Positions 979-30,072 of a stretch of 45,977 nucleotides of DNA are shown here, in pieces. The stretch is taken from the IMG/VR virus record IMGVR_UViG_3300043436_000772, positions 1-45,977 of that record. The stretch is one strand, 5' to 3'. The position numbers were made by a program, and so were the translations under genes. Every line of letters begins with the position of its first letter. Positions within the stretch are counted from its first letter, which is position 1. The notes below the pieces were generated by a model. It was given only the letters and a program-made list of their open reading frames with translations, was not told where the DNA came from and searched no databases. Origin of the DNA: a virus.

Positions 979-984
979 ATTATA
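979..984 (-). promoter_or_regulatory. -10 element, predicted leaderless transcript
   Basis: TATAAT on the minus strand ends 6 bases before the ATG at 972. TG lies two bases upstream of the hexamer instead of the usual one. The start site would coincide with the start codon. Confidence 0.5.
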
Positions 985-1140
985 CGCATAGTTTTAAGGA
1001 AATGAGGTGAAAGTCGCTTGTAGGGGCATTTAAACCATTATTTGCCCTATTGCAGATGTTATGCATACATGGCATTATGGTGGTTTGGGTGTCTCTATTT
1101 CCGACCGTTTAAAAAAACTCGAAACACTATAAAATCAGTG

Positions 1141-1146
1141 TATAAT
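1141..1146 (+). promoter_or_regulatory. -10 element for membrane-protein gene
   Basis: TATAAT preceded directly by GTG, 10 bases before the ATG at 1157. The predicted leader is only about 3 bases, so the transcript is nearly leaderless. Confidence 0.5.
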
Positions 1147-1156
1147 TATTTATATT

Positions 1157-1450
1157 ATGACTATATCGGATTGGGCAGGTTTAATACTAACCGCATTATC
1201 TATCATCGCTATTACCGTTGGCGGAATCCGTTGGTTCATCCAAGCCGAAATGAAAAACCTATCAAACGAACTTAAAAGCGACCTATCGGAACTAAAGCCT
1301 AATCATGGGTCATCAATGAAAGACCAGGTTAACAGACTAGAGCAAAAATCACATCAACTAGAAGAAAAAATCGACAACCTTTATAACGTTTTGATAAACG
1401 AAGGTGTCAAGACTAACAAAAATAAAAAATCAGAAAATAACGAACTTTGA
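1157..1450 (+). CDS. Membrane-anchored coiled-coil protein, holin candidate
   Basis: A 97-residue protein with one hydrophobic segment at about residues 7-27 (ending in GGIRWF), followed by a charged region and a heptad-patterned coiled coil at about residues 55-85. This architecture matches a class of small actinophage membrane proteins (such as DUF2746-type proteins) and also single-span holin-like proteins. The short N-terminus and the single span suggest that the coiled coil lies in the cytoplasm. A lysis role is possible since an NlpC/P60 peptidase lies 4 kb away, but it is not shown. It is followed by an AT-rich stretch and a terminator-like hairpin pair. Confidence 0.65.
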   Translation: MTISDWAGLILTALSIIAITVGGIRWFIQAEMKNLSNELKSDLSELKPNHGSSMKDQVNRLEQKSHQLEEKIDNLYNVLINEGVKTNKNKKSENNEL

Positions 1451-1512
1451 TTATTAATATAATATATATAAACTATAATATATATCTATATATAAATATA
1501 TAATATATAGCC

Positions 1513-1552
1513 CTTATCTCTATAGATAAGAGGGTATCACACTTTTTGTGAT
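1513..1552 (+). terminator. Tandem hairpins after membrane-protein gene
   Basis: CTTATCT/AGATAAG (1513-1530, 4-base loop) is followed by ATCACA/TGTGAT (1536-1552, T-rich loop). They sit in a very AT-rich, gene-free stretch and probably end the transcript of the preceding gene. The T-tract after each stem is weak, so Rho-independent termination is only moderately supported. Confidence 0.45.
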
Positions 1553-1584
1553 TTGTCAAATAGAAAACAGAAATCCCTAACAAA

Positions 1585-1593
1585 TGATATAAT
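1585..1593 (+). promoter_or_regulatory. Extended -10 promoter (TGA-TATAAT) for a small RNA
   Basis: TGATATAAT is a perfect extended -10. The start site would be about base 1600. The next 60 bases form a hairpin instead of a coding start, so this promoter seems to drive a short structured RNA. Confidence 0.5.
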
Positions 1594-1599
1594 TTATCA

Positions 1600-1657
1600 T
1601 AGAGCCAGTGTCTGATACTCTCTCTCATACCCACTTCAGGCACTGGTTCTTTCTATT
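1600..1657 (+). ncRNA. Putative small hairpin RNA with terminator-like 3' end
   Basis: Starting just after a perfect extended -10, the sequence folds into a 14-bp stem (1602-1615 with 1636-1649, two wobble pairs) with a 20-base pyrimidine-rich loop, then a T-rich run (1650-1657). It could be a free-standing small RNA of about 55 nt or a terminated decoy/attenuator ahead of the next gene, which has its own -10 at 1665. The loop contains CTCTCTCTC, complementary over 8 bases to the purine-rich ribosome site of the leftward HTH-like gene (545-727). That pairing is low-complexity and may be coincidence. Confidence 0.4.
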
Positions 1658-1664
1658 TATGGTG

Positions 1665-1670
1665 TATAAT
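1665..1670 (+). promoter_or_regulatory. -10 element, predicted leaderless transcript
   Basis: TATAAT directly after GGTG, 6 bases before the ATG at 1677. It decides the start of the following gene: an in-frame GTG at 1608 lies upstream of the promoter and inside the hairpin RNA. Confidence 0.55.
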
Positions 1671-1676
1671 GTTTAT

Positions 1677-2072
1677 ATGTCTTGTTCAACTTGCTCGTCT
1701 GATTCCCCAATTTTAATTGGTGCAGAACCTTCAAACATTAAATGGACCGTTGTCCGTGGCGATGACATATCCACAACTATTGAATTTTATGAAGATGATG
1801 GCGTTACCGCTAAGACTACCACAGGTTGGACATTCTTAGCAAGTGCCTATAACCCTAAAACACTAACCAAATATACCCTGACAGTCACATCTGGTGCTGG
1901 ATATGTTACTATTTCAGCAAACTCTGCTATGACTTCTGGATGGGGAACTGGAAGTGCTAATATTGTAGCGGAACTAGGCTTTGACCTTCAAGTAACTATT
2001 TCTGGAGAAAAGTGGACCCCTATTATCGGAACAATCGTTGTTCGTTCTGATATCACAGGAAGTGCACTATGA
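1677..2072 (+). CDS. Small beta-rich virion protein, fibre/baseplate type
   Basis: A 131-residue protein of mainly Ser/Thr/Gly-rich beta sequence with no charged helices. It begins MSCSTCSSD, with two cysteines in the first six residues. The pattern after residue 20 (WTVVRGDDISTTIEF, then GWTFLASAY and later GTIVVRSD) resembles the small beta-sandwich proteins that accompany phage fibres or baseplates. The start is chosen from the -10 at 1665-1670. It overlaps the collagen-like gene by ATGA, so the two are probably translationally coupled. The exact role is not known. Confidence 0.6.
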   Translation: MSCSTCSSDSPILIGAEPSNIKWTVVRGDDISTTIEFYEDDGVTAKTTTGWTFLASAYNPKTLTKYTLTVTSGAGYVTISANSAMTSGWGTGSANIVAELGFDLQVTISGEKWTPIIGTIVVRSDITGSAL

Positions 2073-2605
2073 CAACAATAAAGATTATTCCAGATACCAC
2101 GCAAAGTGCAGTAATTAAAACCGTTCTAACTGCTGGTCAACCAGGACCTACAGGAGCAACTGGTGCTACTGGACCAGCAGGACCTGCATTGAGCCCAGAA
2201 GACACAGCATTTACAGTGCAGGGCGGAACTTTGGGAACTCAGCCTACGTTTAACGGAGCACCTCTTTTTACTGGTTCTTATGTAAAAACAGGAGACCAGG
2301 TTCACTTTAGAATTGACGTTGACATGGACAATATCACTAACTTTGGCAGTGGTCAGTACTACTTTAACTTGCCATTTCCATCCAAGTACAACTACCAATT
2401 CGCTGCTGGTTGTTTGCACGACATTTCTACTGGCAGAGACTACCCAATCTTTGGGCATGTCTTGGCAGGAGAGTCTCAAATGGTTATGAAGAGTATCGAC
2501 TCTCAAGGAAACTCCGCTTTCAATATTCCGTTTACTGCAACATCTCCGTTTACCTTAGCGGTAGCAGATAACTTTCACATTTGTGGTGACTACATCACCG
2601 AATAA
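2069..2605 (+). CDS. Short tail fibre with collagen-like segment
   Basis: A 178-residue protein. Residues about 28-48 carry Gly-X-Y triplets (PGPTGATGATGPAGP), a collagen-like trimer-forming rod common in phage fibres. The C-terminal 120 residues look like a beta-rich globular head and probably form a receptor-binding or capping domain. It starts at the ATGA overlap with the preceding gene. The pair may form one small fibre or decoration complex. Family-level evidence is the collagen repeat only. Confidence 0.65.
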   Translation: MTTIKIIPDTTQSAVIKTVLTAGQPGPTGATGATGPAGPALSPEDTAFTVQGGTLGTQPTFNGAPLFTGSYVKTGDQVHFRIDVDMDNITNFGSGQYYFNLPFPSKYNYQFAAGCLHDISTGRDYPIFGHVLAGESQMVMKSIDSQGNSAFNIPFTATSPFTLAVADNFHICGDYITE

Positions 2606-2609
2606 CTAA

Positions 2610-2618
2610 TGCTATAAT
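2610..2618 (+). promoter_or_regulatory. Extended -10 promoter (TGC-TATAAT) for glycosyltransferases
   Basis: TGCTATAAT followed by a leader of about 20 bases with AAAGGA (2630-2635), 9 bases before the ATG at 2645. This is a leadered member of the promoter family. Confidence 0.6.
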
Positions 2619-2644
2619 AGATATCTAACAAAGGATTTCAGGGT

Positions 2645-3571
2645 ATGAAAATCGCAGTTTACACAATTGCACTTAATGAAGAAAAGCACGTTGAACGCTG
2701 GTACAACTCAGTAAAGGACGCTGATTATATTCTTATTGCTGATACTGGTTCTACTGACCGTACCGTGGAAATTGCCAAGTCACTTGGTATCAATGTATTT
2801 AATATATCAATCAAGCCTTGGAGATTTGACACAGCCAGAAACGTAGCCCTAGCCCTACTACCAGACGACATTGACCTTTGCATATCTATCGACATGGACG
2901 AGGTTCTTTCAGAAGACTGGAGACCAGAACTAGAAAAAACTACAGGCAATCAGATTACTTATGTTTTTAGAAACAACAAAGACTTTGTGAATAACCGTAT
3001 TCACGCCAGACATGGATTTATCTGGAAGTTCCTTATGCACGAAGGTCTTGTTCCAGACCGAACTGAAATGATTGACGAATTTTGTCCAGGAATTGAAGTA
3101 ACACATATGCCAGATATGGAAAAGCCAAGAAGTCAGTATACTCAACTACTTATTGACGCTTTAAATGAAAATCCAGACATTGGAAGATACTATAAGTACA
3201 TTACCGAAGCACTAGTTGCCGAAAAAAGATTTGAAGAGGCTGAGGGCTACTACCTAAGAGTCCTACAAATTCCAAATTTTCCAAATGAAGACGCTGCTCG
3301 TGTTTACAAAATTCTTTCAGAAATCATACCCGAAAAAACAGGCGAGTACATGTTGCTTTGCTTGCAAACAGCCCCACATAGACGAGAGCCATACTACTAC
3401 ATCGCTAAGTGGTACGGAGACCATGAAAGATGGGAGGAATGCTTAGTTTGGTGCGAAGCAGCCCTAGAGGTAGATAAAATAGTTGTTGATGTTTTTAAAG
3501 ATAATGCTGCTTGGGGAGAACCTATGCTAGAATTATATAACAAGGCAAAGGAAAAGGCTAACAAAGAATGA
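2645..3571 (+). CDS. Family 2 glycosyltransferase with TPR-like C-terminus
   Basis: A 308-residue GT-A-fold glycosyltransferase. The N-terminus has the GT2 pattern: TIALNEEK (residues 7-14), ADTGSTDRT (32-40) and the metal/nucleotide-sugar motif DMDE with Asp83 and Asp85. After about residue 170 the sequence turns into helix pairs of tetratricopeptide type (for example EALVAEKRFEEAEGYYLRVL). It should transfer a sugar from a nucleotide donor to a protein or glycan in the cytoplasm. Because it sits among fibre genes, glycosylation of virion proteins is an attractive idea; modification of host surface glycans is an alternative. It overlaps the next, paralogous gene by ATGA. Confidence 0.85.
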   Translation: MKIAVYTIALNEEKHVERWYNSVKDADYILIADTGSTDRTVEIAKSLGINVFNISIKPWRFDTARNVALALLPDDIDLCISIDMDEVLSEDWRPELEKTTGNQITYVFRNNKDFVNNRIHARHGFIWKFLMHEGLVPDRTEMIDEFCPGIEVTHMPDMEKPRSQYTQLLIDALNENPDIGRYYKYITEALVAEKRFEEAEGYYLRVLQIPNFPNEDAARVYKILSEIIPEKTGEYMLLCLQTAPHRREPYYYIAKWYGDHERWEECLVWCEAALEVDKIVVDVFKDNAAWGEPMLELYNKAKEKANKE

Positions 3572-4608: not shown

Positions 4609-4612
4609 GCTG

Positions 4613-4621
4613 TGCTATAAT
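4613..4621 (+). promoter_or_regulatory. Extended -10 promoter (TGC-TATAAT), predicted leaderless
   Basis: TGCTATAAT ends 6 bases before the ATG at 4628. No TTGACA-like -35 lies 17 bases upstream and no Shine-Dalgarno is present between -10 and ATG. Confidence 0.65.
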
Positions 4622-4627
4622 TAAACC

Positions 4628-5143
4628 ATGAGTTCAGCAGTAGGCACAGGTACATCTTATCAGGTCACAATACCAGACCAAACTGATGTCGCAGACATTC
4701 AGGTAGCATTGCAGTTATTGGCATATGGAACTACCTCTGCACCTGCTAACAATGCAGCAATCTTGACAAACTCTATATTTGGAAAAATTATTTATGAGGT
4801 TCAGCCAAACCCAACAGCACTTAACTCAACAGCAACACTGACAATTGCACAACTACTTACATATATTGTTACATCTGCTCCGACTGCCGCAATAAATTTA
4901 ACTTTGCCAACAGGAACATTGAGCGATACTGGAATTCAGGGTGCTGGTCAAGTGTCCCCAAACAACACAGCCTTTGACTGGTCTGTCATAAACACTAGTG
5001 CAACAGCAGGTGCAACAGTTACACTTCTGGCAGGTACTGGACATACCATTGTTGGCTCTGCCGCAGTCGCTATTGGAACTTCTGCTAGATTCAGAACTAG
5101 AAAAACAGCAACAAATACTTTTGTTACATATCGTATTGCTTAG
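4628..5143 (+). CDS. Structural fibre-tip or decoration protein
   Basis: A 171-residue, Thr/Ala/Ser-rich, cysteine-free beta protein. The C-terminal half (NNTAFDWSVINTSATAGATV to the end) follows a pattern seen at the ends of phage fibre or capsid-surface proteins: FDW-I-N, VTLLAGTGHTIVG, then RFRTRKT and a final VTYRI strand. The start is set by the -10 element 6 bases upstream. It ends convergently with the peptidase gene, sharing 4 bases. A virion surface role is likely; whether on tail or capsid is unknown. Confidence 0.6.
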   Translation: MSSAVGTGTSYQVTIPDQTDVADIQVALQLLAYGTTSAPANNAAILTNSIFGKIIYEVQPNPTALNSTATLTIAQLLTYIVTSAPTAAINLTLPTGTLSDTGIQGAGQVSPNNTAFDWSVINTSATAGATVTLLAGTGHTIVGSAAVAIGTSARFRTRKTATNTFVTYRIA

Positions 5144-5685
5144 TTAGTTTCTACTACTCTTACAAATCTTATTTGACTGTTTTTGTAGTCAGCCAGTGGT
5201 TGAATGATTGTCGTTCCAGCCTCATAGTGAGCGTTTACTATTTTACCCTTGCCGATATAAATACCAGAGTGATAAAAATTAGTCGAGCCACGATAAGCCA
5301 TGACAACAATGTCTCCTAATTTTGGAACAGAAACTCTTTTACCGATATGGGCTTGCTTGTCAGCAGAGTGAGGGATATCCAAACCAAACTGTCTGTATGT
5401 CCACCTAACCATCCCAGAACAGTCCCATCCATATGGGGTAGAGCCAGAAAATACATAAGAAGTTTTATTTACACGTCTCATTAATTTAATGACAGTTTCT
5501 TTCATCCTGTCTGTATTTTTCATGTGCTTGGCATGATTGATTAACTGGCTTCTAAAGTCAAAGCCTTTTTCTTTAATTATTTGTTGGGGTACCTTGTCTG
5601 CCTGAGCGATAGGGGTTGGATACCCAGACAAAACTAAACTTAGTATTCCGACAGCGAGTAATTTTTTGATTTTTGAATTATTCAT
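5140..5685 (-). CDS. Exported NlpC/P60 cell-wall peptidase
   Basis: A 181-residue cysteine peptidase of the NlpC/P60 family, which cuts peptide bonds in peptidoglycan stems (usually gamma-D-Glu to diamino acid). The catalytic Cys89 lies in GWDCSG, His139 in YHSGIYIG and the third polar residue is His153 in NAHYE. Residues 1-29 form a Sec signal peptide (basic start, hydrophobic core 9-20, cleavage after AQA), so the enzyme acts outside the membrane. A strong GGAGG precedes the ATG. It is the only leftward gene inside the structural block, with its own promoter and leader hairpin. It may serve as endolysin or as an exported wall-remodelling enzyme. Confidence 0.88.
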   Translation of the reverse strand: MNNSKIKKLLAVGILSLVLSGYPTPIAQADKVPQQIIKEKGFDFRSQLINHAKHMKNTDRMKETVIKLMRRVNKTSYVFSGSTPYGWDCSGMVRWTYRQFGLDIPHSADKQAHIGKRVSVPKLGDIVVMAYRGSTNFYHSGIYIGKGKIVNAHYEAGTTIIQPLADYKNSQIRFVRVVETN

Positions 5686-5703
5686 ATTTTCCTCCTTTAA
5701 TGG

Positions 5704-5726: not shown

Positions 5727-5735
5727 CGTATATCC

Positions 5736-5744
5736 ATTATACCA
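5736..5744 (-). promoter_or_regulatory. Extended -10 promoter (TGG-TATAAT) for peptidase
   Basis: TGGTATAAT on the minus strand; the start site would be near 5729, giving a 40-base leader. It is divergent from the promoter at 5776-5784. Confidence 0.6.
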
Positions 5745-5775: not shown

Positions 5776-5784
5776 TGCTATAAT
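5776..5784 (+). promoter_or_regulatory. Extended -10 promoter (TGC-TATAAT) for fibre operon
   Basis: TGCTATAAT with a leader of about 24 bases carrying GAAAGG before the ATG at 5815. It probably drives the 78-residue gene and the giant fibre. Confidence 0.6.
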
Positions 5785-12000: not shown

Positions 12001-14396
12001 CAACAGTTGCCTCCGTGTCCCAAACAGGTCGTGGCTCATTTGACACACTAAACGCTCCCAACGGTGCTTACTTCGGAAACTTAGTTGCTCAACCAGGTAA
12101 TGGTGCTTACCTTGCTGTTCAAGGATATGCACCTGGACACAGACCTTTCATGGTTCGTGGTTTTGGTGCAACTACCGCTAACCTTGTTGACTATCAGAAC
12201 GGCTCTGGTGTCGTTGTTGGTGGGCGAAACGGTGTAGGTCAGATATTTACAGGTTCTGCAAACCCATTAGCATTTGGTGTTGGTGGTGCAACTACTGCTA
12301 CTTCTGGCAATGGAACTACCGCCACAATTACGACCACCACCGACCATGGCTTGGCAGTTGGAGATATCGTTACTGTTGCAGGTATCACGCCTACTGGATA
12401 TAATGGAGGTTATTCTGTTGCATCTACTCCTACAACTACAAGTTTTACTTATGCAAACGCAACTACTGGTGCACAAACTGTTGCAGGAACTGTTTCTATT
12501 GCTCCACAGGTTGGAATTGTTGCTCGTTCCGCTGGAACTGATGGGCTAGTTGTTCGTACTGCTGCATCTCAAATTGCTTCTGCTTTTGAAACACAAGACG
12601 TTTCAGGAACTACACGTTTTTATATTGATGCTGCTCACAACGCAAACTTTAGTTCCGCATCTTGGTTTCAAAACTCTACTGGTAAACTAACTATTGGCTT
12701 GACTTCTGCTTCAGCAGTTGGTTTGACTGTTCGTGGTGCATCGGGGCAGTCTGCAAACTTACAAGAATGGCAAGCGGCTGGGTCTCCACCAACTGTTTTG
12801 GCAAGTGTTAACTCCGCTGGAGATATTGGAACAACGTCTGCAATGCTTGCTGGAACAAGCACATGGTTGGGGGCAAGCCTAAATGTTAGACCAATTAATC
12901 AAGGAATTATTGGTCAGGTTATTCGTGGTACAGGCACTCAGCAGGTAGATATGTTGCAAATACAAACTTCTCTTGGAGTAAATCTAAGCGGTATAAATGC
13001 TAATGGACAAATTTGGACTGGCTCTACGTTACCTTTGACAACATCTACTGGTGGTGCCACTACAGCAACTTCTGGTACAGGAACTGTTGCAACTGTTACT
13101 ACTACTAACAACCACAATCTTTCTACAGGAGATAGAGTTATCGTTGCTGGCATAACTCCTACAGGATACAATGGTACTTTTATTGTTACAGGTACACCTA
13201 CAACAACAACTTTCACTTATGCAAACACAACCACTGGGTCTCAGACCATTGCAGGAACTGTAAGAGTTGATTCTCAAACCTCTATAACTTCTCGTTCTGC
13301 GGCTACCGTTGGACTTGTGGTTCGTGGTGCAACAAGCCAGGTAACTGACATCCAGCAATGGCAAATATCAGACGGAACGGTTAGGTCATACATAACAGCA
13401 GATGGCTCTTTCTTAACATCCTCTACCCTGACCAGTATGGGAAACCTAAGAGTCGCTGGAACTGCTGGCACAGGAGGCGGCTCTGGAGTAATTGGCATTG
13501 CTAACGCAGGAACAGCACCTACATCTAATCCAACTGGTGGGGGTGTTTTATTCGTAGAATCAGGTGCTCTTAGATATCGTGGAACTTCAAATGCAGCAAG
13601 AACTATTGTTAATGCTGACGGAACACTTCCAGTTCCAACATCAGTAGTGAACACAGTATCGGGAACAAACTCTGCAGAACTTGTTCGTGGAAACATGGCT
13701 GACAACGACCAGTTTAGAATTCTTGTTGGTGGCACTGCCACAAACACAGGTTTTGCAGAAATTGCAACTGCAGATGATGGAACTGAGCCTATCCATGTGA
13801 GACAGTACACTGGAGTATTTACAACATTGGTTAGAACTGCAACCTTGCTCGATGCTTCTGGAAACACAAGTTTTCCTGGTTCTCTAAGTTCTGCATCATT
13901 AACTACAACTGGAGCAGTAAACCTAAACTACGCATCGCCAACTATCGCATCTAATAACGCTTCTGCTGCAAGCATCTTCACATCTTCAGTTACAGGTATA
14001 ACAATAGGTTCTTCTACTATCAGAACTACCGAATTCCCAGCAGACGGAACAACTTCTACAGCCGCATCTGGTGCTGGATACATGGGTCTACCTCAAAACG
14101 CTACAACTACAGGTGCTTATACTATTGTTGCAGCAGATGCTGGTAGACACATTTATGCTTCTGCTACTCGAACAATAACAATTAACTCAAACGCTAACCT
14201 TGGCTTGCCTATCGGAACCACCCTGACATTTATTGCTGGTAGCGGTGCAACAATGACTATTGCTATTACATCTGATACAATGTATTTAGCAGGACCAGGA
14301 ACAACAGGTTCTCGTACCCTTGCACCTTTTGGTATGGCTACTGCTGTAAAGATAACTTCTACATCATGGATGATTAGCGGAAATGGACTGACATAA
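6057..14396 (+). CDS. Giant modular tail fibre, 2,779 residues
   Basis: Residues 1-55 match the N-terminal domain of many phage fibres and tropism determinants (IQHKRGTADQW, DAGEVGWESDTNKFKIG, STAWNSL). The rest is Thr/Ser/Gly/Asn-rich beta sequence made from recurring blocks: six about 75-residue modules with NHNLSIGD...GYNGTF cores, five GQIFTGST linkers before them, several ARSAGTxGxxVRGAxSQ...LQQWQ segments, and three GALRYRGTSN blocks. Two unique globular domains interrupt the repeats (about residues 660-810 and 1300-1480; the second looks like a carbohydrate-binding beta-sandwich). It is very long for a fibre and should be trimeric and host-binding. The C-terminus (about 2690-2779) resembles fibre-tip domains. 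It shares one base with the next gene. Confidence 0.85.
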   Translation: MSVIIQHKRGTADQWFTLNPTLDAGEVGWESDTNKFKIGTGSTAWNSLAYATLTPSGLSATYAQLVGGNAFTGAQTITSTGTGQFPLTIIPATGQTVETFRIRNSANNADLLNISSGGALTINAAAGSTPYMNLPGLVTLGRQADNEINIRNLSQLRFESGNNWNYNSWAGLGFDSSNRNLYLGGPAGSANYFRNNSNAERVIFNLVGLSTHNSDAKDTILQSRGTNTRLIVRGKNQTATVSGVTGNGTTVTYTTSSAHYMDAGDVVTITGVNPSAYNLTSVTIASVPSQTTFTVTNAATGTFVSGGTATVNQANNLQEWQNSAGSILSRINSAGDLFTDRVNLGGAVFGGGIYYGKLNILQEAGGHNIGLLGRDNSSVDMMRMRQGANSIGDFITMQNSSGTTLGGRNAVGQIFTGSTAPLTTAVGGGINGVSANGTVVTISTTNAHNLANGDRVTIAGLTPAGYNGTYIISGVATFSFNVNNTTTGTASGSGTVSADSQVSVTPKSVGTAGVVVRSLASQVANPFEVQNSSGVVVANISPGGSVRATATLQGASLSAVSDGSTIATLSSGGNIQFRGAASYGSGVGVIGIANVTTAPSTSPSGGGILFVEAGALRYRGTSNASQTIANADGSSPFAILANNNSFLGRIFLSGGATIYDHAVETPGSTDTAWKKLIEVTCPTGLYTGASYELEVVDSFDNYGIIDRIPQRFKFYVKINRTGGVQDDVLSASVTGPSVNYVRVVKTSSSLYEIQVRQPDIFRIVSFKVRRIGQNNTTESYTPSGKTYGTLDAGSTTGTIYVPVNDSTTSANFLVDNFSQLSANRITIQPLGTLAATTPLLSLTGTSTQNSNFIEVRNSGGTILSRISNDGSWNQGLDSTRTFISAASGRIQVVSSNSTAPGIVLRPFAANYAGYDHMQYRNSADGIIGGVNVNGQIYTGSTAALTTGTGGATTTTSGTGTVATITTTSNHNLSIGDRVTVAGVTPTGYNGTFIVTGTPTTTSFTYNNTTTGSQTVAGTVSIDAQASIVARSAATTPLILRAAVNQGVNMFRIEGSAGGATATIDAAGAASFVSGAIVLTGGGSVSANGTVNSAGSMRIGSTGATLSGTNILYMASGTAPSASPISGGFLHVDSGALRYRGTSNPSTTIVNADGTIPIFSANNTFTGVQAFNNTVNIGSGVSGSVGLEIGSTNGTGTTPFIDFHSHTSANDFDARIIASGGTNSTNGAGTLTYTAGAHNFTGAITSQNSITGQAGVALSGTTSPLTLNGSAGTTGQVLTSAGSGTTPTWSSSFISTTSSYFAGHNPEGRLMYNTYLTNDMANARLRGSAVAATQNGSAYTISNANWDAMFDGTATFFNISPTSGFTFPLVITVPLPRTLTYGTWVGISFGSTTFRANSVQIEVFSLDSNSWVTVVNTTTNTSEDIFAAVSGLTNGNATGINQIRYTISNPNSTQLRLQHLWAYNFNSDMWSQTMMPRAGGAFYGAISVPGAVTMTGALNVNTTGTGTLNLGDAQISKAPGSGFSFSSGIGNLTSLGIGTAANNASPLSVFFDTPVKFNIFRGAANQTADILRIQSSAGTVLGGDNGVGQIFTGSTTPILTATGGTIQSIATGANPLVTMASAHGFAVGDLVTLAGTTGGTYNGTFVVASTPLTTTFTITSALTTGQAGTGGTASAPAQLSVTARSAGTTGQIVRGAASQSADLQQWQNNTPTTLASVSSNGSFTAPSLTVSSGGTYTTGSIFADSNWGMIFRSRTASPINAQYRWANSADGELMRLDNSGRLIVSNGLAGGVQGTAQIEARTLNATTIGTIVRGFGSSGVITQTADLQQWQTWNGTTATTVASISATGILNSGSGTYNDYNADSTIRAEFRGTAGTQRPYIELQGVGANDPANENGGAFIRFRTSRSPGYGAEIGGIRKSGGASSLILKTGIATTDAITQKMAIDENGNVFINGFAPGTIGLTVRGASLQSVNLQEWQTNSPTTVASVSQTGRGSFDTLNAPNGAYFGNLVAQPGNGAYLAVQGYAPGHRPFMVRGFGATTANLVDYQNGSGVVVGGRNGVGQIFTGSANPLAFGVGGATTATSGNGTTATITTTTDHGLAVGDIVTVAGITPTGYNGGYSVASTPTTTSFTYANATTGAQTVAGTVSIAPQVGIVARSAGTDGLVVRTAASQIASAFETQDVSGTTRFYIDAAHNANFSSASWFQNSTGKLTIGLTSASAVGLTVRGASGQSANLQEWQAAGSPPTVLASVNSAGDIGTTSAMLAGTSTWLGASLNVRPINQGIIGQVIRGTGTQQVDMLQIQTSLGVNLSGINANGQIWTGSTLPLTTSTGGATTATSGTGTVATVTTTNNHNLSTGDRVIVAGITPTGYNGTFIVTGTPTTTTFTYANTTTGSQTIAGTVRVDSQTSITSRSAATVGLVVRGATSQVTDIQQWQISDGTVRSYITADGSFLTSSTLTSMGNLRVAGTAGTGGGSGVIGIANAGTAPTSNPTGGGVLFVESGALRYRGTSNAARTIVNADGTLPVPTSVVNTVSGTNSAELVRGNMADNDQFRILVGGTATNTGFAEIATADDGTEPIHVRQYTGVFTTLVRTATLLDASGNTSFPGSLSSASLTTTGAVNLNYASPTIASNNASAASIFTSSVTGITIGSSTIRTTEFPADGTTSTAASGAGYMGLPQNATTTGAYTIVAADAGRHIYASATRTITINSNANLGLPIGTTLTFIAGSGATMTIAITSDTMYLAGPGTTGSRTLAPFGMATAVKITSTSWMISGNGLT
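6771..6990 (+). repeat. Beta module copy 1 (giant fibre)
   Basis: Divergent first copy of the shared module: AHYMDAGDVVTITGVNPSAY core, then TTFTVTNAATGTF. It reads like an FCCH-type small beta-barrel; the fold is inferred. Confidence 0.55.
7330..7550 (+). repeat. Beta module copy 2 (giant fibre)
   Basis: NAHNLANGDRVTIAGLTPAG core followed by a YNGTYI strand and a Thr-rich tail. It is preceded by a GQIFTGST linker. Confidence 0.65.
7822..7965 (+). repeat. GALRYRGTSN block, copy 1
   Basis: IGIANVTTAP, then GGGILFVEAGALRYRGTSN and NADGS. This motif is common in phage fibres (GALKYRGS type). Copies 2 and 3 lie at 9390-9530 and 13490-13630. Confidence 0.65.
8890..9120 (+). repeat. Beta module copy 3 (giant fibre)
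   Basis: SNHNLSIGDRVTVAGVTPTG core, YNGTFIVTGTP, TTSFTYNN and VAGTVS. Very close to copies 5 and 6. Confidence 0.7.
9390..9530 (+). repeat. GALRYRGTSN block, copy 2
   Basis: SGTAPSASPISGGFLHVDSG followed by ALRYRGTSN and NADGTIP; same block as 7822-7965. Confidence 0.65.
10855..11080 (+). repeat. Beta module copy 4 (giant fibre)
   Basis: SAHGFAVGDLVTLAGTTGGT core, YNGTFVVASTP, then a Thr-rich tail with an inserted GTGG. Somewhat divergent. Confidence 0.65.
12277..12500 (+). repeat. Beta module copy 5 (giant fibre)
   Basis: TDHGLAVGDIVTVAGITPTG core, YNGGYSVASTP, TTSFTYANATTG, VAGTVS. Confidence 0.7.
13045..13268 (+). repeat. Beta module copy 6 (giant fibre)
   Basis: NNHNLSTGDRVIVAGITPTG core, YNGTFIVTGTP, TTTFTYANTTTG, IAGTVR. 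Confidence 0.7.
13490..13630 (+). repeat. GALRYRGTSN block, copy 3
   Basis: IGIANAGTAP, GGGVLFVESGALRYRGTSN and NADGTLP. Close to copy 1. Confidence 0.65.
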
Positions 14397-14584
14397 TGGT
14401 AGGCTGTGTACAAGGGTTAATTGGTTCTTTAAAGTCTGCTGGTGCTCCACCACCATCTACTTTTTTGTGTACAAGTTTTCAAGTGTCTATCGGTTGTTGT
14501 GCAAGTACCGCTTCATGTGGTGAATTGGGGGCTGGAAGTTCTTGCTCTCCTGCCAACGGAACTTTTGACCCAGAAGCGTGTTAG
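14396..14584 (+). CDS. Cysteine-rich mini-protein (62 residues)
   Basis: A 62-residue protein with seven cysteines (positions 4, 25, 34, 35, 41, 50 and 62), the last one being the C-terminal residue. It is otherwise Ser/Gly/Ala/Pro-rich with little predicted secondary structure and no signal peptide. It starts one base inside the stop of the giant fibre (TAATG), so translation is probably coupled. The cysteines are not in CxxC pairs, which argues against a zinc ribbon and for disulfides or another thiol chemistry. Function unknown. Confidence 0.5.
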   Translation: MVGCVQGLIGSLKSAGAPPPSTFLCTSFQVSIGCCASTASCGELGAGSSCSPANGTFDPEAC

Positions 14585-14587
14585 AAT
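14579..14587 (+). promoter_or_regulatory. Extended -10 promoter (TGT-TAGAAT), predicted leaderless
   Basis: TGTTAGAAT overlaps the last codons of the cysteine-rich gene and ends 6 bases before the ATG at 14594. Confidence 0.55.
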
Positions 14588-15243: not shown

Positions 15244-15277
15244 AAAACTGTGGTATACTTTATCTATTACAGTTTTA
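15244..15277. promoter_or_regulatory. Inverted repeat around reductase promoter, possible operator
   Basis: AAAACTGT (15244-15251) and ACAGTTTT (15269-15276) are perfect inverted arms, extendable to 9 bp, and enclose the -10 hexamer. A dimeric repressor bound here would block the promoter. It does not match the known NrdR-box consensus. Confidence 0.5.
15251..15259 (+). promoter_or_regulatory. Extended -10 promoter (TGG-TATACT) for reductase
   Basis: TGGTATACT, then a 28-base leader with AAAGGTGG before the ATG at 15294. Confidence 0.6.
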
Positions 15278-17333: not shown

Positions 17334-17341
17334 ATAAAAAG

Positions 17342-17375
17342 ATACCCTGTCATTAACTTGGCAGGGTATTTTCTT
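17342..17375 (+). terminator. Intrinsic terminator after reductase
   Basis: A 10-bp stem (ATACCCTGTC with GGCAGGGTAT, one wobble), 8-base loop, then TTTTCTT. The next promoter begins only a few bases later. Confidence 0.85.
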
Positions 17376-17378: not shown

Positions 17379-17387
17379 TGGTAGAAT
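17379..17387 (+). promoter_or_regulatory. Extended -10 promoter (TGG-TAGAAT), predicted leaderless
   Basis: TGGTAGAAT ends 7 bases before the ATG at 17395 and directly follows the terminator. Confidence 0.6.
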
Positions 17388-21509: not shown

Positions 21510-21518
21510 TGGTATACT
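21510..21518 (+). promoter_or_regulatory. Extended -10 promoter (TGG-TATACT), predicted leaderless
   Basis: TGGTATACT ends 7 bases before the ATG at 21526. A GTG at 21520 in the same frame would lie upstream of the predicted start of transcription. Confidence 0.6.
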
Positions 21519-23564: not shown

Positions 23565-23570
23565 TATAAT
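23565..23570 (+). promoter_or_regulatory. Second -10 element, predicted leaderless start of protease mRNA
   Basis: TATAAT preceded by GGC, 7 bases before the ATG at 23578. Together with the upstream element it would give two transcripts, one leadered and one leaderless. Confidence 0.5.
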
Positions 23571-23577: not shown

Positions 23578-24828
23578 ATGAGTATTCAAAAAGCACATTT
23601 TGACATTGACGGAAATAATGTCCGTATCTCTATGCCTCTCACAAAGGTAGACGCAGAACGCAGAATCGTATCTGGTTTTGCCACGCTTGATAACATCGAC
23701 AAGCAGAACGATATCGTTACACCAGAAGCATCTCTTTCAGCCTTCTCAAAATTCCGTGGTAACATTCGTGAGATGCATCAACCAAAAGCAGTAGGCAAAA
23801 TGGTAGCATTCAAAGAGGACAAATATTTTGACCCAGAGACAAAGAAGTTCTATCAGGGTATTTATGTATCAGCATACATCTCAAAGGGTGCTCAGGATGC
23901 ATGGGAAAAGGTTATTGACGGAACATATACAGGTTTTTCAATTGGTGGGAAGATGAACAATTGGGACGATGGCTATGACGAAAAGAGCGATTCCGCTATT
24001 AGAATTATTAAGGACTATGACTTGGTTGAGTTATCCCTAGTTGACAGTCCTGCAAACCAATTTGCAAACATTCTGTCTGTTGAAAAGGTAGATGGTGTTG
24101 ACACCATTACAGGCGATGGCACAGAAACAGTTCTAGAAAATGTTTTCTGGGACAAAGAATCTGGATTGGTAACAATCTCAGAAGAAGAAACAGCATCAAG
24201 TCCAGTTACTGGAGCACAGATGCAAAACATAGGTTTTGTTGAGAAGTCAGATGCTGACAAACTTGACATGATAAAGTTCTTAGTTGATAGTGCTAAAGGC
24301 ATTAATACTTCTAAGATTATTAAAAAGGAGAATGATAACATGACCGATGAAAACGTAAACGTTGAATCAGTAGATGTCGCTCCAGAGGCAGAAGTTGTAG
24401 TTGACGCTCCTGCTACAGAAGAAGTTGTTGAAGACGCTCCAGTAGCAGAACCAGCACATGTAGAAGAAGTTGTAGAAGAAGTTGTCCCAGTTCCAGAGGA
24501 AGAAATTGCCAAGGCAGTTTCAGAACTAGGCACAACAGTTACAACAGCCTTTAGCGACATTACAGCAATCATCAAGTCACTAGCAGATGCAAATGCATCA
24601 CTAGTTAATGAAGTTGCTGAACTAAAGAAATCACTTGGTTTCGTATCTGCAGCAGTTGCAGATGCAGAGTCAGATTTCACAAATCTTGGAAAGCGTATCG
24701 ATGCTGTTGAAGCAGACACCGCTTTCCGCAAGTCTGGCGACCTCGGTGAGGTCGTTCAGGAACCAGTACTGGTGGAAAAATCAGTATGGGGCGGAAGTTT
24801 CCTCACAACATCCGATTTACTAAAATAA
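23578..24828 (+). CDS. Capsid maturation protease fused to scaffold domain
   Basis: A 416-residue protein. Residues 1-165 are a prohead serine protease of the XkdF/S78 type: VSGFATLDNIDKQND (31-45), His67 in REMHQP, the nucleophile Ser121 in GFSIGG, and ELSLVDSPAN (151-160) with a third acidic residue. After a linker comes an acidic Glu/Val/Pro-rich stretch (about 260-305) and a long helical coiled-coil region (about 306-385), the hallmarks of an internal scaffold. The start follows the -10 at 23565-23570 by 7 bases. It cleaves scaffold and capsid during head maturation. An internal start makes the scaffold alone. Confidence 0.9.
   Translation: MSIQKAHFDIDGNNVRISMPLTKVDAERRIVSGFATLDNIDKQNDIVTPEASLSAFSKFRGNIREMHQPKAVGKMVAFKEDKYFDPETKKFYQGIYVSAYISKGAQDAWEKVIDGTYTGFSIGGKMNNWDDGYDEKSDSAIRIIKDYDLVELSLVDSPANQFANILSVEKVDGVDTITGDGTETVLENVFWDKESGLVTISEEETASSPVTGAQMQNIGFVEKSDADKLDMIKFLVDSAKGINTSKIIKKENDNMTDENVNVESVDVAPEAEVVVDAPATEEVVEDAPVAEPAHVEEVVEEVVPVPEEEIAKAVSELGTTVTTAFSDITAIIKSLADANASLVNEVAELKKSLGFVSAAVADAESDFTNLGKRIDAVEADTAFRKSGDLGEVVQEPVLVEKSVWGGSFLTTSDLLK
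24340..24828 (+). CDS. Nested scaffolding protein from internal start
   Basis: An in-frame ATG at codon 255 of the protease gene is preceded by AAAAAGGAG (24322-24330) with a 9-base spacer, one of the strongest ribosome sites in the window and out of place inside a gene. The product would be 162 residues: an acidic Pro/Val/Glu-rich N-terminus, then a coiled-coil helix and the C-terminal tail that usually contacts the capsid protein. This is the lambda C/Nu3 arrangement, known from many phages. Confidence 0.75.
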   Translation: MTDENVNVESVDVAPEAEVVVDAPATEEVVEDAPVAEPAHVEEVVEEVVPVPEEEIAKAVSELGTTVTTAFSDITAIIKSLADANASLVNEVAELKKSLGFVSAAVADAESDFTNLGKRIDAVEADTAFRKSGDLGEVVQEPVLVEKSVWGGSFLTTSDLLK

Positions 24829-26016: not shown

Positions 26017-26040
26017 TCTGTAATAGTGTTACCCTTGAAT

Positions 26041-26071: not shown

Positions 26072-26082
26072 CTACATTTATC

Positions 26083-26091
26083 TGGTATAAT
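26083..26091 (+). promoter_or_regulatory. Extended -10 promoter (TGG-TATAAT) for connector operon
   Basis: TGGTATAAT directly after the capsid terminator; the leader contains AAGGAGG 8 bases before the ATG at 26118. Confidence 0.65.
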
Positions 26092-26117
26092 TGAAATAAA
26101 TCTAAGGAGGATTTATC

Positions 26118-26423: not shown

Positions 26424-27566
26424 ATGGAAGTATTGAGAGTTCCACCATATCCAATTACAACTAAGTGGGATGTGCCAGCAGCAAATACTGCATATTCTGT
26501 TTATGTGCAGGATTTGGTGGACCACTCATCCGAAACATCCACGCTTACATCAGATGCAAATAAGCAAATATCCTATATTTTGCCAAGAAGCAAAGTTCAG
26601 TTTGATAGAGACTTTTTGTTTCAGGTAAAGGATTCTGCTGGAGAAATTGTTGTAGATGAGAATTTAACAGTTTATAGACCATATGTTAATCCAAATACTT
26701 TAGCAACCACAGCAGATGAAATTGCCGAGTATAAGAGTTGGGAAATAATTGCTAGGTCTATTATGGATAATTATCTGGATAAAAGCGATTTCTATAACCA
26801 TAAACTTGTTATTGTAAAAGAAGGTCAGGGTGGGGACTATTTTCCAATCTGGCACAATGTCAATAAGGTATTGAAAGTATATGAAAACAATGTTCTTATT
26901 TATAATGGAGAAGATGTTGCTATAACCCTTGCAACGCAGACTCCAACAATATCATCTGGAACCGTAACCCTGACAACCGCTACTGCTCATGGGTACGAGG
27001 TTGGAAACGTAGTTACAATCTCTACAGTTGTTCCAACAGGATATAATGGAATATTTGTTGTTACAGCAGTTCCAACAGAAACATCTTTTAGTTTTGCAAA
27101 CTCAACAACTGGAAACATCACAACAGCAGGTAGTGTTCTTAGAATTTGGGAATATGAATACAAAACACTTCTTGATAACTCTGCCATTGCCAGAGTACAG
27201 CCAACTGGAATATATAACAGGTATGAGTCTACTCCACTAAGGCTTCCATCGGCTTCTGGAGACCTAGCAATACATGCTGGACAGAAAAACGGTTATGTTG
27301 CATTTGCAGAAGGAAGCGACTTTACTTTTGTTTTAGATGCAGGATACAAGACAATTCCAACAGATGTAGAAAAGGCTGCAAAGATACTCGTTGAAGAATT
27401 AAAATGTGGCTCAAACGATTACTACAAAAGATTTGTTACACAGTACAGCACAGACCAATTTGATATTAAGTTTGCCCCACAATTTTTGGAGGGAACTGGC
27501 AACATGCTAGTTGATAAGATTCTTAACAACTATAAGGGCAGCACGTTCAAGCCATCAATATTATAA
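26424..27566 (+). CDS. Head-tail connector (adaptor-like) with inserted beta module
   Basis: A 380-residue protein. Its position right after the capsid unit and its mix of an N-terminal beta domain, a central helical stretch (EIAEYKSWEIIARSIMDNYL) and a C-terminal helical part (VEKAAKILVEELKCG...) fit a head-tail adaptor. A copy of the beta module that is otherwise found in fibres and tail proteins (residues about 170-240) interrupts a hydrophobic beta region between NNVLIYNGEDVAI and WEYEYKTLLDN. The connector call is mainly positional. Confidence 0.6.
   Translation: MEVLRVPPYPITTKWDVPAANTAYSVYVQDLVDHSSETSTLTSDANKQISYILPRSKVQFDRDFLFQVKDSAGEIVVDENLTVYRPYVNPNTLATTADEIAEYKSWEIIARSIMDNYLDKSDFYNHKLVIVKEGQGGDYFPIWHNVNKVLKVYENNVLIYNGEDVAITLATQTPTISSGTVTLTTATAHGYEVGNVVTISTVVPTGYNGIFVVTAVPTETSFSFANSTTGNITTAGSVLRIWEYEYKTLLDNSAIARVQPTGIYNRYESTPLRLPSASGDLAIHAGQKNGYVAFAEGSDFTFVLDAGYKTIPTDVEKAAKILVEELKCGSNDYYKRFVTQYSTDQFDIKFAPQFLEGTGNMLVDKILNNYKGSTFKPSIL
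26931..27143 (+). repeat. Beta module copy 10 (inside connector)
   Basis: TAHGYEVGNVVTISTVVPTG core, YNGIFVVTAVP, TSFSFANSTTG and TTAGSV. Confidence 0.65.
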
Positions 27567-28012
27567 TGATATGCGAAACTACAGACCTTGTTTATCCACT
27601 ACTTGCTGACATATATTATCCAATCGTAACTACTGGTCCATATGGCAATATGGAAAAACAATGGATTCTAGACAGAACAATTGCATGTTATTTTAATCCA
27701 GCAGGAAGAAAGTTTAAAGAAGATGTTAAGATTCATCCGAACATAACAATAGACAACTCTTATGTTGGAAGAGCAAGAAACGACATATCTGAGTCTAACG
27801 GTAATGAATTGTATTCGATTACAAACGTAGTCATTACAAATATTAGAGATACTTCTGGAAACTATATTTATAATGAGTATTCTGGACCTAGAAAAGGTCA
27901 GCCAACAATATTTGAAATATCAACATCAAACCCGATAGTTGGTCCTTTTGGTAAGACAGAGTATTACAAGTTAGTTATAACTCGTTCAGAAAACCAGGCG
28001 GCTGACCTGTGA
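27566..28012 (+). CDS. Head closure/stopper-like protein
   Basis: A 148-residue beta-rich protein with two cysteines. The order (adaptor, closure, gp10-like, terminator, tube) and size fit a head-closure protein that plugs the portal. Sequence features such as WILDRTIACYFNPAGRKFK and IRDTSGNYIYNEY are consistent with the small beta-barrel of that family but do not prove it. It starts inside the stop of the previous gene (TAATG) and ends by overlapping the next gene (GTGA). Confidence 0.55.
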   Translation: MICETTDLVYPLLADIYYPIVTTGPYGNMEKQWILDRTIACYFNPAGRKFKEDVKIHPNITIDNSYVGRARNDISESNGNELYSITNVVITNIRDTSGNYIYNEYSGPRKGQPTIFEISTSNPIVGPFGKTEYYKLVITRSENQAADL

Positions 28013-28689
28013 TATCTGTAAAGTTTGACGACAGGATTATGTTTAAAGACCTTTCGAATATCGTAAAATATTCCGAAGGATTTTTATTAGGTGCAGAACT
28101 TGGCAAAGAGAAACTAGCAGAAAGCATTGCTAGAAATGCCATAGAAATATTTAAAGAGTTCGTTGACCAAAATGCCAGGGTAGACCAGGAAATGTATCAC
28201 CACATATATGAATGGTATCAGGAGGGTAGCCCAAACGCAAGACTATTTGATGTAGAGTATACAGCAAGAGATGGTGGAATATCTTTTAATGGAACCTTTT
28301 CACAATCTAGAAGCCTTAGCAGAAACTCAACAACACCATTCTACAATAAAGCAGAAGTTATGGAAAGAGGTCTTTCAATAACCATTAAGCCAGTAAGAGC
28401 AAAGGTGCTTAGTTTTAATATAGATGGAGAGCAGGTGTTTACCCCAAATCCAATTACAGTACAAAATCCAGGTGGAAGTCAGGTCGTAGGTTCGTTTGAA
28501 AGAATCTTTGATTTGTTCTTTAAACAACACTTTAAGCAATCTGTTCTTGATATGACTGGAATAACCAAGTCTTTGAGTAACGCTAAAGCATATAAAGACA
28601 ACTTTAAGTCTGGCAAATCTGGAGGCAAAGCAAGAGGAGTAGAAGTAGGGTATAATTGGATTACGAAGGCAGGTGACTTAAATGTCTAA
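28009..28689 (+). CDS. Neck protein, HK97 gp10-like
   Basis: A 226-residue protein that starts with GTG at the overlap with the previous stop. It has an N-terminal helix (residues about 20-50, GAELGKEKLAESIARNAIEI), a beta middle and a basic C-terminus (KSGKSGGKARG). This matches the size and position of HK97 gp10-like neck components, but the middle insertion is unusual. It overlaps the next gene by 8 bases. Confidence 0.5.
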   Translation: MISVKFDDRIMFKDLSNIVKYSEGFLLGAELGKEKLAESIARNAIEIFKEFVDQNARVDQEMYHHIYEWYQEGSPNARLFDVEYTARDGGISFNGTFSQSRSLSRNSTTPFYNKAEVMERGLSITIKPVRAKVLSFNIDGEQVFTPNPITVQNPGGSQVVGSFERIFDLFFKQHFKQSVLDMTGITKSLSNAKAYKDNFKSGKSGGKARGVEVGYNWITKAGDLNV

Positions 28690-29206
28690 AACATCAATTT
28701 TAAATACCCCAGTATTATGGATAAACGCATATCTTCAGGAAAAACTAGAAGACCTAGGCTTTGAGACAATGCCATTCTTTCCATCTGTTCCATCTACAAT
28801 TAACAACCTTACAGAGTCTTTTCCATCGAGTGGGGTAATGGCTACATACGACAGAATGATTAGGATGAGAAAAAGAGCATTCCCTCACATTAAGTGTGAA
28901 CAACTGCTGTACTACTTCTATGCTACTGCAGAAAACTCGGTTCTAAACATGGTAAAGATAACAGAGCAAACCCTAAGACTTATGGACCGTGAAGACGAAA
29001 CAGCAGAAGAGATTAACGATTGGTGTAGACAAAAAGGCTCTATAACAGTAGACGGAGTAGTCATAGAGCCAAACTTTATTTTTCACGGATTTAAACTATT
29101 TCAGTTACAGGAAACCAGAGACGTTATTGACTTCGGTACAGCCAGAACCTATGCTGGTAATAAGATAATTATTTACTATGACTACCACATGCTAGAACTA
29201 CCTTAA
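28682..29206 (+). CDS. Tail terminator/completion-like protein
   Basis: A 174-residue protein located just before the tail-tube gene, the usual place for the tail-terminator protein. It contains a helical first half (VLWINAYLQEKLEDLGF), a beta core and a Tyr/His-rich end. An AGGTGA site precedes the ATG at 28682. No catalytic motif. Assignment rests on gene order. Confidence 0.5.
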   Translation: MSKTSILNTPVLWINAYLQEKLEDLGFETMPFFPSVPSTINNLTESFPSSGVMATYDRMIRMRKRAFPHIKCEQLLYYFYATAENSVLNMVKITEQTLRLMDREDETAEEINDWCRQKGSITVDGVVIEPNFIFHGFKLFQLQETRDVIDFGTARTYAGNKIIIYYDYHMLELP

Positions 29207-29211
29207 AAGCA

Positions 29212-29220
29212 TGTTATACT
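29212..29220 (+). promoter_or_regulatory. Extended -10 promoter (TGT-TATACT) for tail tube
   Basis: TGTTATACT with a 55-base leader that contains GAGG and a GGTG near the ATG at 29276. The leader is longer than elsewhere in the window. Confidence 0.55.
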
Positions 29221-29275
29221 TGTAAAGAGGAAACACAAGCCCATTAATTCATAAACGAAAGATGGTGAAAAAAAT

Positions 29276-29998
29276 ATGGCATATAAAAGAGGTTCAAATC
29301 AAAACATTATCGTAGGTGCGGCAGCATTGTTTGTTTCAAACCACGATAAGACTTGGGATAGTTCTAACTTGACCAACCAACCAGTATTTGCACTTGCTAC
29401 TTCATATAAGGAAAGTTGCACAAACTCTGCAAACGTAGTTAACGTAGGTTATACCAGCAATGGTATTGACATTTCGTTCAACCCTACATTTGGAGACGTA
29501 GTTGTAGACCAACTTCTAGACGTAGCAAAATTGTTTAAGTCTGGAATGACAGTAACTCTAACAACATCGTTTGCCGAGGCATCACTAGAAAACCTTCTAT
29601 TGGCTATCGGTCAGCGTGGTTCAACTAATGCGTACACATCTCAGACAAGTTTCTCTGGTCCATTGTACACAACTGCTCCTGCAACATGGCTAACTGGTAC
29701 AACAACTGGAGCAACTGCAGGTCTTAACGAGTACATTGACCTAACTTCTGGAGAACTTGGAGACTATCCAGTAGAAAGAAGTTTGGTGGCTGTTGGTCCA
29801 GGTATTGGAGTGGCAGGTGCAACAGGTGCAGGTCTATCAGACCAAACAGAGCGTGTATACATTGCTTATCGTGTAGTATCGATTAGCAACGTTACTGTTT
29901 CTGCAAAGCGTGACTCTGCAACTATGTTCGATGTAGAGTTCCGTCTACTTCCAGATGACTTGGGAGCATACGGACGAATTATCGACCGCACATTCTAA
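29276..29998 (+). CDS. Major tail tube protein
   Basis: A 240-residue beta-rich protein followed by a strong terminator and then by chaperone and tape-measure genes, the standard location of the tail-tube gene. Sequence segments such as GAAALFVSNHDKTW, ISFNPTFGDVVVDQLLDVAK and VTLTTSFAEASLENLLLAIG fit a siphophage tube protein of the gpV type with a central helix. The C-terminal half has a Gly-rich loop and a beta end (FDVEFRLLPDDLG). It has its own promoter, in line with high expression. Confidence 0.75.
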   Translation: MAYKRGSNQNIIVGAAALFVSNHDKTWDSSNLTNQPVFALATSYKESCTNSANVVNVGYTSNGIDISFNPTFGDVVVDQLLDVAKLFKSGMTVTLTTSFAEASLENLLLAIGQRGSTNAYTSQTSFSGPLYTTAPATWLTGTTTGATAGLNEYIDLTSGELGDYPVERSLVAVGPGIGVAGATGAGLSDQTERVYIAYRVVSISNVTVSAKRDSATMFDVEFRLLPDDLGAYGRIIDRTF

Positions 29999-30026
29999 AA
30001 CTAAATAATAACTGAATATCGTTGAG

Positions 30027-30059
30027 ACTGCCCTAGGGATTCCTGGGGCAGTTTCTTTT
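30027..30059 (+). terminator. Intrinsic terminator after tail tube
   Basis: An 11-bp stem ACTGCCCTAGG with CCTGGGGCAGT (one wobble), GATT loop, then TTTCTTTT. The T-run joins straight into the next extended -10 promoter. Confidence 0.88.
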
Positions 30060-30067
30060 GGTATAAT
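30059..30067 (+). promoter_or_regulatory. Extended -10 promoter (TGG-TATAAT), predicted leaderless
   Basis: TGGTATAAT begins on the last T of the terminator and ends 5 bases before the ATG at 30073. Confidence 0.6.
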
Positions 30068-30072
30068 AGACT

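Follow-up and report, generated by a model that had tools for sequence, protein, structure and literature searches.

Can the messages of many genes in one phage begin at the start codon itself, and if so, what distinguishes these genes from those with a leader? The question was raised by a stretch of viral DNA of 45,977 bases (IMG/VR record IMGVR_UViG_3300043436_000772, here called the window, at its full length), in which a first-pass annotation had noticed -10 hexamers lying 5-7 bases upstream of nine ATG codons. Leaderless genes make up more than 20% of genes in Actinobacteria (PMC3160421) and 26% of the Mycobacterium tuberculosis genes with a primary transcription start site (PMC3898074), and predictions of leaderless starts exist for single phage promoters (PMC4351075, PMC11373665); the purpose of this mode of initiation in actinobacteria is debated. 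Because the arrangement is conserved and excludes Shine-Dalgarno (SD) sites, we found strong support for the view that these mRNAs start at the start codon or within a few bases of it, without an SD site, and that both modes of initiation are used. About a quarter of the messages in the region are predicted to start in this way.

Near-start -10 hexamers and the exclusion of SD sites

The near-start hexamers of the window are given below, where d is the number of bases between the -10 hexamer and the start codon.

979..984, minus strand: -10 TATAAT, d6 before the ATG of gene 760-972 (start 972); leaderless-type
1141..1146, plus strand: -10 TATAAT, d10 before ATG 1157, no SD; possible near-leaderless start
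1665..1670, plus strand: -10 TATAAT, d6 before ATG 1677; leaderless-type
4613..4621, plus strand: extended -10 TGCTATAAT, d6 before ATG 4628
14582..14587, plus strand: TAGAAT after TGT, d6 before ATG 14594; weak candidate
17382..17387, plus strand: -10 TAGAAT in TGGTAGAAT, d7 before ATG 17395
21513..21518, plus strand: -10 TATACT in TGGTATACT, d7 before ATG 21526
23565..23570, plus strand: -10 TATAAT, d7 before ATG 23578, head maturation protease
30059..30067, plus strand: extended -10 TGGTATAAT, d5 before ATG 30073

A -10-like hexamer was found at about the stated distance at all nine of the ATGs originally proposed, which are those above except 1157 (TATAAT, d10, no SD; a candidate absent from that list) together with a mini-frame at 30808. 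The mini-frame did not prove to be a conserved leaderless gene, and 14594 became doubtful, as described below. In order to determine if the motifs exceeded expectation, they were counted in the window and in dinucleotide shuffles. The exact extended motif TGnTATAAT occurred 10 times (nine on the plus strand, one on the minus strand) against a mean of 2.6-3.0 in the shuffles, and its reversed pattern occurred once. TATAAT at d5-7 before an ATG opening at least 40 codons was found five times, and the shuffles gave a mean of 0.17 and a maximum of 1. The loose form TANNNT showed no excess ahead of ATGs in general when the window was compared with shuffles, and it was dropped as the motif.

The portal, 30073, 17395, 4628, 1677 and 14594 proteins served as queries to collect related loci, whose upstream regions were compared at homologous starts. 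A -10-like hexamer was found at d6 before 69 per 1000 first ATGs versus 5 per 1000 internal ATGs, and at d7 before 53 versus 5 per 1000 (122 versus 9.5 per 1000 for both spacings combined; 1,315 first and 3,271 internal ATGs, from homologous and so not independent loci). An additional peak at d9 among first ATGs came mainly from the protease family. At d5-7 ahead of ATGs with at least 60 open codons, TATAAT gave 39 sites, and permuted versions of the hexamer, which served as the control, gave 4-15.

None of the nine window genes with a -10 at d5-10 had an SD match of 5 bases or more, in agreement with the earlier claim that eight of these starts lack a ribosome site; most window genes with a more distant upstream -10 had an SD match. 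Across 15 gene families of related viruses, 143 distinct starts had a -10 at d5-10 and not one of them also had an SD (0/143), and 95 of the 122 remaining starts in the same families had one. By these motif calls the near-start -10 and the SD site are mutually exclusive, and the exclusion is complete despite the far divergence of many of these phages. The 143 leaderless-type starts used ATG in 140 cases, GTG in three and TTG in none; an ATG or GTG start is the rule for leaderless initiation in mycobacteria (PMC4633059).

Conservation of individual starts

The near-start arrangement was kept in homologues at seven of the eight gene starts, with 14594 being weak, and the hexamer and its spacing were conserved down to about 30-40% protein identity while the flanking bases changed. 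Counting the window, a -10 at d5-10 was present in 5/5 distinct homologues of 1677, with TATAAT at exactly d6 in all 32 loci that carry the hairpin described in the last section, despite quite different N-termini; at 4628 the spacing was unchanged in 4/4 distinct homologues. All 15 homologues of 21526 had the -10 (d7 in 14), at identities down to 39%, and the gene before the portal gene in Streptomyces phages showed a similar arrangement. At 23578 all 47 homologues had a -10 at d6-10 and none had an SD. At 30073 a -10 at d5-10 was found in 46 of 56 distinct homologues (d6 in 34, TGn in 42). For start 972 on the minus strand, hexamer and spacing were the same in L209 (63% identity), the only homologue detected.

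Start 17395 revealed that the mode of initiation is not frozen. A -10 at d5-10 was present in 17 of 27 distinct homologues including the window, each time with TGn (17/17), and seven of the 27 had an SD leader instead. Between two of these homologues (L086 and L070) the main difference was a short SD-bearing stretch after a shared TGATAAAAT.

The cultured phages Gilson, Comrade and BoomerJR also had near-start -10s, at genes whose order is shared:

Before the large gene upstream of the portal gene: d9, d6
Before the small gene adjoining the portal gene: d7, d7, d6
Before the connector gene or its counterpart: d6, d6

Actinomycetia phage DSL-LC01 (53.6% GC) gave a weak signal, with a near -10 at four first-ATG open reading frames (ORFs) among 276 ORF candidates, two of them at d6, two at d7 and none at nearby spacings.

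Promoter architecture

The first-pass annotation had described a single family of extended -10 promoters with no evident -35 box, which turned out to be too simple. TGn was present at 4628, 17395, 21526 and 30073 (91% of the 30073 promoters, 100% of those of 17395 and 21526) and was not in register at 1677 and 972 (minus strand). The promoters of 30073 and 30829, the gene that follows it, read T-R-T-G-n before a TATAAT-like hexamer and lacked a -35 signal, and no such signal was detected at the 30073, 21526, 4628 and 1677 promoters, so for these the earlier statement held. It failed for the 23578 family: TGn occurred in only 11 of its 47 promoters, and 44/47 had at least 4/6 matches to TTGACA at 17-19 bp spacing (mean 4.17, versus 3.05 in shuffled sequence, standard deviation 0.12). 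Moreover, AAA stood about 8-10 bases before the hexamer (near -21) in 46-47 of the 47. Judged from these features, the 23578 family is a second promoter type. Sites of the form AAAARGG-TATAAT that resemble it were also seen upstream of other genes in relatives (e.g. L127:2189, L096:2141 and L029:16510).

Two of the extended -10s were directly preceded by hairpins:

30024..30055, plus strand: terminator-like hairpin abutting the 30073 promoter, at the place of a -35 (RNAfold -25.1 kcal/mol)
17341..17370, plus strand: terminator-like hairpin abutting the 17395 promoter (RNAfold -18.1 kcal/mol)

A hairpin ending a few bases from TGn was found in 20/20 of the 30073 homologues tested versus 1/20 shuffled sequences, and in 6/17 of the 17395 homologues versus one shuffled. 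Since the hairpin ends at the extended -10, little room is left for a -35 at either gene, and a putative terminator, promoter and start codon would be packed into about 50 bases.

These hairpins bear on the best-placed alternative, namely that the near-start hexamers are not functional promoters, and that the genes are transcribed as operons from upstream and translated on long SD-less leaders or by coupling. Several leaderless-type genes do closely follow a gene on the same strand, and upstream -10 sites exist in places, such as 23524 ahead of 23578. However, terminator-like hairpins directly upstream of 30073 and 17395 speak against read-through as the source of these messages, a gene that is truly internal to an operon, portal gene 21921, had a near -10 in 0/11 homologues, and the operon explanation accounts neither for the exact spacing at 1677 nor for the exclusion of SD sites. 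We therefore regard it as unlikely.

Host affiliation and proposed mechanism

The window represents the structural half of a genome related to Stanwilliamsviridae, a placement that follows from the homology of its portal and protease to members of that family. It codes for a ribonucleotide reductase, portal, head maturation protease, major head protein, a tape measure protein of 2502 amino acids and tail proteins; Pfam returned no domain for the leaderless genes tested. The portal matched Streptomyces phages such as Gilson and Annadreamy (43%), the head maturation protease matched Streptomyces phages (40-55%), and the reductase matched Actinomycetia phage DSL-LC01 and Mycobacterium phage Gaia (61%). 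WhiB, an actinophage marker (PMC10202952), was above its family cut-off in 10 of 16 large relatives, and a sigma factor was not confidently matched in any of these 16, which are fragments and not whole genomes. On these grounds the host is very likely an actinobacterium, and transcription is probably carried out by the host enzyme. The virus is predicted to infect freshwater actinobacteria.

We consider it very probable that the phage relies on its actinobacterial host's own transcription and leaderless translation. In the proposed mechanism, host RNA polymerase with the housekeeping sigma factor would recognize the -10 hexamer, strengthened by the upstream T-R-T-G-n extension or, at 23578, by the -35-like element. 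Transcription would begin 6-8 bases past the hexamer; for seven or eight genes this point is the A of the ATG or lies no more than about four bases from it. No SD site would be needed for the ribosome to initiate on the 5' AUG, and the putative terminators upstream of 30073 and 17395 would end right at the extended -10. Promoters of the same kind that stand 16-55 bases upstream would give other genes an SD-bearing leader. Selection apparently acts on the choice of mode: a presumably scarce long chaperone would be leaderless and a presumably abundant short one SD-led.

The promoters might instead be used by a phage-specific factor and not by the host housekeeping holoenzyme. The AAA at a constant offset in the 23578 family could be its binding mark, and the similar sites ahead of other genes in relatives would fit such a factor. 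Against this, the large relatives yielded no confident sigma factor match, a consensus TATAAT with a TRTG extension fits the housekeeping factor, and the window promoters 30073, 21526 and 4628 lack the AAA mark, which makes this alternative slightly less probable still than operon transcription. The pairing of TATAAT with ATG by chance in an AT-rich genome, for which the lack of a general TANNNT excess could be cited, is ruled out as a general explanation by the excess over shuffles and internal ATGs and by conservation across divergent homologues, so that its probability is negligible overall and it stays plausible only for 14594 and the 30808 mini-frame.

Several points weigh against initiation by host polymerase on leaderless messages. 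The transcription start sites are predictions from sequence; SD calls came from simple motif lists and the -10 calls were also motif-based. Homologous loci share ancestry, so the 265 starts of the 15 families and the other counts cannot be treated as independent observations, and Fisher P values make the evidence look stronger than it is. Conservation at 972 (minus strand) comes from one homologue. Start 14594 was poorly conserved (1/5 homologues by the strict rule, TAGGAT in two and none in the others) and is doubtful as a leaderless start. Most 23578 homologues had spacings of 9-10, implying a leader of 2-4 bases, so that the original prediction of strictly leaderless mRNAs, otherwise sustained by conservation and SD exclusion, has to be relaxed there. 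Finally, a search of bacterial genomes with the ribonucleotide reductase gave a single match, on a small contig in a Chitinophagaceae metagenome-assembled genome (MAG).

That contig (L224, JAFMJX010000223.1; 3.2 kb, from a Chitinophagaceae MAG bin) codes for a reductase 81% identical to that of the phage over 140 residues. It is probably misbinned phage DNA, and a Chitinophagaceae host was dismissed accordingly. With regard to 14594, the TAG of its putative -10 TAGAAT doubles as the stop of ORF 14396-14584.

SD-led genes behind the same kind of promoter

Promoters of the same kind were located at a greater distance from SD-led genes:

2610..2618, plus strand: TGCTATAAT, promoter of SD-led gene 2645
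5736..5744, minus strand: TGGTATAAT, promoter of SD-led gene 5140-5685
5776..5784, plus strand: TGCTATAAT, promoter of SD-led gene 5815
15254..15259, plus strand: TATACT, promoter of SD-led ribonucleotide reductase gene 15294
26083..26091, plus strand: TGGTATAAT, promoter of SD-led gene 26118
30793..30801, plus strand: extended -10 TGTTATAAT, promoter of SD-led gene 30829, with the 30808 ATG inside its leader

SD leaders at 2645, 5815, 15294 and 26118 behind this kind of promoter upheld the idea that both modes coexist in one phage. The leaders were conserved: gene 5815 had an SD plus a -10 at d18-45 in 8/8 homologues, gene 15294 an SD in 13/14, and gene 30829 a -10 at d18-45 in 51/60 and an SD in 48/60. 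The mini-frame at 30808, with a hexamer at d6 in the window, had been taken for a further leaderless start and was rejected as a leaderless upstream ORF. Its ATG was kept only in the closest relatives (L095 and L096), lost in L090 and absent in distant homologues, and the promoter, leader and SD of 30829 were conserved where this ATG is lost. It lies, by this evidence, in the 5' leader of 30829.

The tail assembly chaperone pair

The two modes adjoin each other at a pair of related genes:

30073..30789, plus strand: tail assembly chaperone, long form, with N and C domains fused into a single reading frame; leaderless-type
30829..31146, plus strand: tail assembly chaperone, short form, SD-led; paralogue of the 30073 N domain

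Gene 30073 was assigned as a tail assembly chaperone because two genes annotated as chaperones occupy the corresponding place in Streptomyces phage Coruscant, adjoining the tape measure gene and in different frames. The 30829 product was 40% identical to the 30073 N domain over 96 amino acids (E value 2e-23). Among 67 distinct loci with the fused gene, 60 had a near -10 without an SD and none had an SD; the remaining seven showed a hexamer that departs from the consensus, a wider spacing or an upstream region that is cut short. The short copy was present in all 63 fused loci with room downstream and was SD-led in 63/63. TATAAT itself was the -10 of 45/51 short copies versus 12/46 long copies.

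Seven outgroup-type loci, including that of Coruscant, were organized differently, with the two domains in a -1 frame relation, all SD-led and with no short copy. In 6/7 of them a heptamer matched X XXY YYZ perfectly and stood in the right frame, the heptamers of the frameshift-type relatives being CCCAAAT, CCCAAAC or AAACCCA, and six further cultured Streptomyces phages had CCCAAAT (three) or CCCGGAA (three). In a tree of the C domain all fused genes fell on one side of a branch with support 93/94, and in a tree of the N domain long copies and short copies each formed one group. Both trees point to one evolutionary event, well maintained, and not to many independent ones.

Thus the mode of initiation was found to vary together with gene layout, and in one lineage programmed frameshifting appears to have given way to leaderless initiation combined with duplication. 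Most long-tailed phages rely on a -1 programmed ribosomal frameshift to set the ratio of their two chaperone forms. Phage lambda uses a -1 frameshift to produce the short and the long form at about 30:1, a ratio that is important for tail assembly (PMC5009743). A corresponding ratio in the window lineage could be set by duplication and distinct initiation modes, the fused long form being leaderless and the short form SD-led with the better -10. The mode switch would then fall on the same branch as the disappearance of the frameshift and the acquisition of the paralogue, and all three would have been kept since. Such a model for the two forms is plausible, and the chances that it is correct in full appear evenly balanced. 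A weaker start would be expected for the fused gene if the scarce form is its only product. In M. smegmatis reporters, leaderless constructs gave less mRNA and less protein than a strong leader, with protein per mRNA not clearly different (PMC7148126), and in other work leaderless translation was comparably robust (PMC4633059). The earlier suggestion that the two modes set expression classes has found one good case, the pair 30073/30829, as far as can be judged from sequence. A literature search combining tail assembly chaperones and leaderless starts showed no link in titles or abstracts, which is weak evidence of novelty.

Comparison with known systems

The leaderless-type genes of the window resemble the leaderless (TA-led) genes of actinobacteria in having a -10 about 10 bp upstream, no SD, an ATG or GTG start and a share of about a quarter of genes (PMC3160421, PMC3898074, PMC4633059). 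They differ in being phage virion genes, often with a strong TRTGn, whereas only 7% of the TANNNT promoters of M. tuberculosis have TGn. The closest phage parallel lies in the Cluster O mycobacteriophages (Corndog group), where SigA-type promoters, one of them within the structural operon, are predicted to start at the first base of the start codon (PMC4351075). Few promoters are involved there, against about eight within the 46 kb of the window, where conservation could be followed through dozens of relatives and a terminator-like hairpin abuts the -10 at two. Leaderless actinobacterial genes are thus known, and what is unusual here is the packing of a putative terminator and an extended -10 against the start codon and the apparent swap with frameshifting at the chaperone genes.

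As in lambda G/GT, a short, presumably abundant form and a long, presumably scarce form share an N domain and are encoded just before the tape measure gene. The frameshift-type relatives resemble lambda further in their slippery heptamers in the right frame. In the window lineage, unlike lambda with its -1 frameshift, the long form is encoded by one ORF through in-frame fusion, and a separate paralogous gene encodes the short form. The tail assembly chaperones of T4-like phages, according to the title of a 2022 study by Vladimirov, are reportedly not made by frameshifting and would share with the window two forms made by another mechanism; we know of no link between them and leaderless initiation.

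This viral family may serve as a natural experiment on leaderless starts as a low-output setting, because the initiation mode changes together with a gene presumably needed in small amount; the mode was kept across divergence and never mixed with SD sites. Cultured Streptomyces phages with near-start -10s at syntenic genes make the question approachable. Annotation may be affected as well, since starts of the leaderless type are easily misplaced by gene finders with SD scoring.

A conserved hairpin element upstream of gene 1677

One further promoter of the window is predicted to head a short hairpin RNA and not a gene:

From 1585, plus strand: TGATATAAT, with TATAAT at 1588..1593
1603..1660, plus strand: conserved hairpin with a 13-bp stem (1603-1615/1636-1648), the loop TACTCTCTCTCATACCCAC (1616-1634, 19 bases) and a T-rich tail

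Neither the hairpin nor any other part of the window matched an Rfam family, and no antisense target of the loop besides itself was found in the window. The loop is rich in pyrimidines, and its exact sequence TACTCTCTCTCATACCCAC was present in 30 viral contigs (L232-L261), where its identity follows from the construction of the search. Among 12 distinct sequences 99.4% of the cells were paired, four pairs had changed on both sides, and no slid control matched this. The element ends just before the 1677 promoter and always precedes a leaderless-type gene. It could be a short independent RNA, and as such is a candidate phage small RNA; alternatively, it could be a conserved terminator within a leader that is able to extend into 1677. 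Between gene 1157-1450 and this element, a long TA-rich stretch (taatatatat repeats) was observed at positions 1455-1510 of the window.

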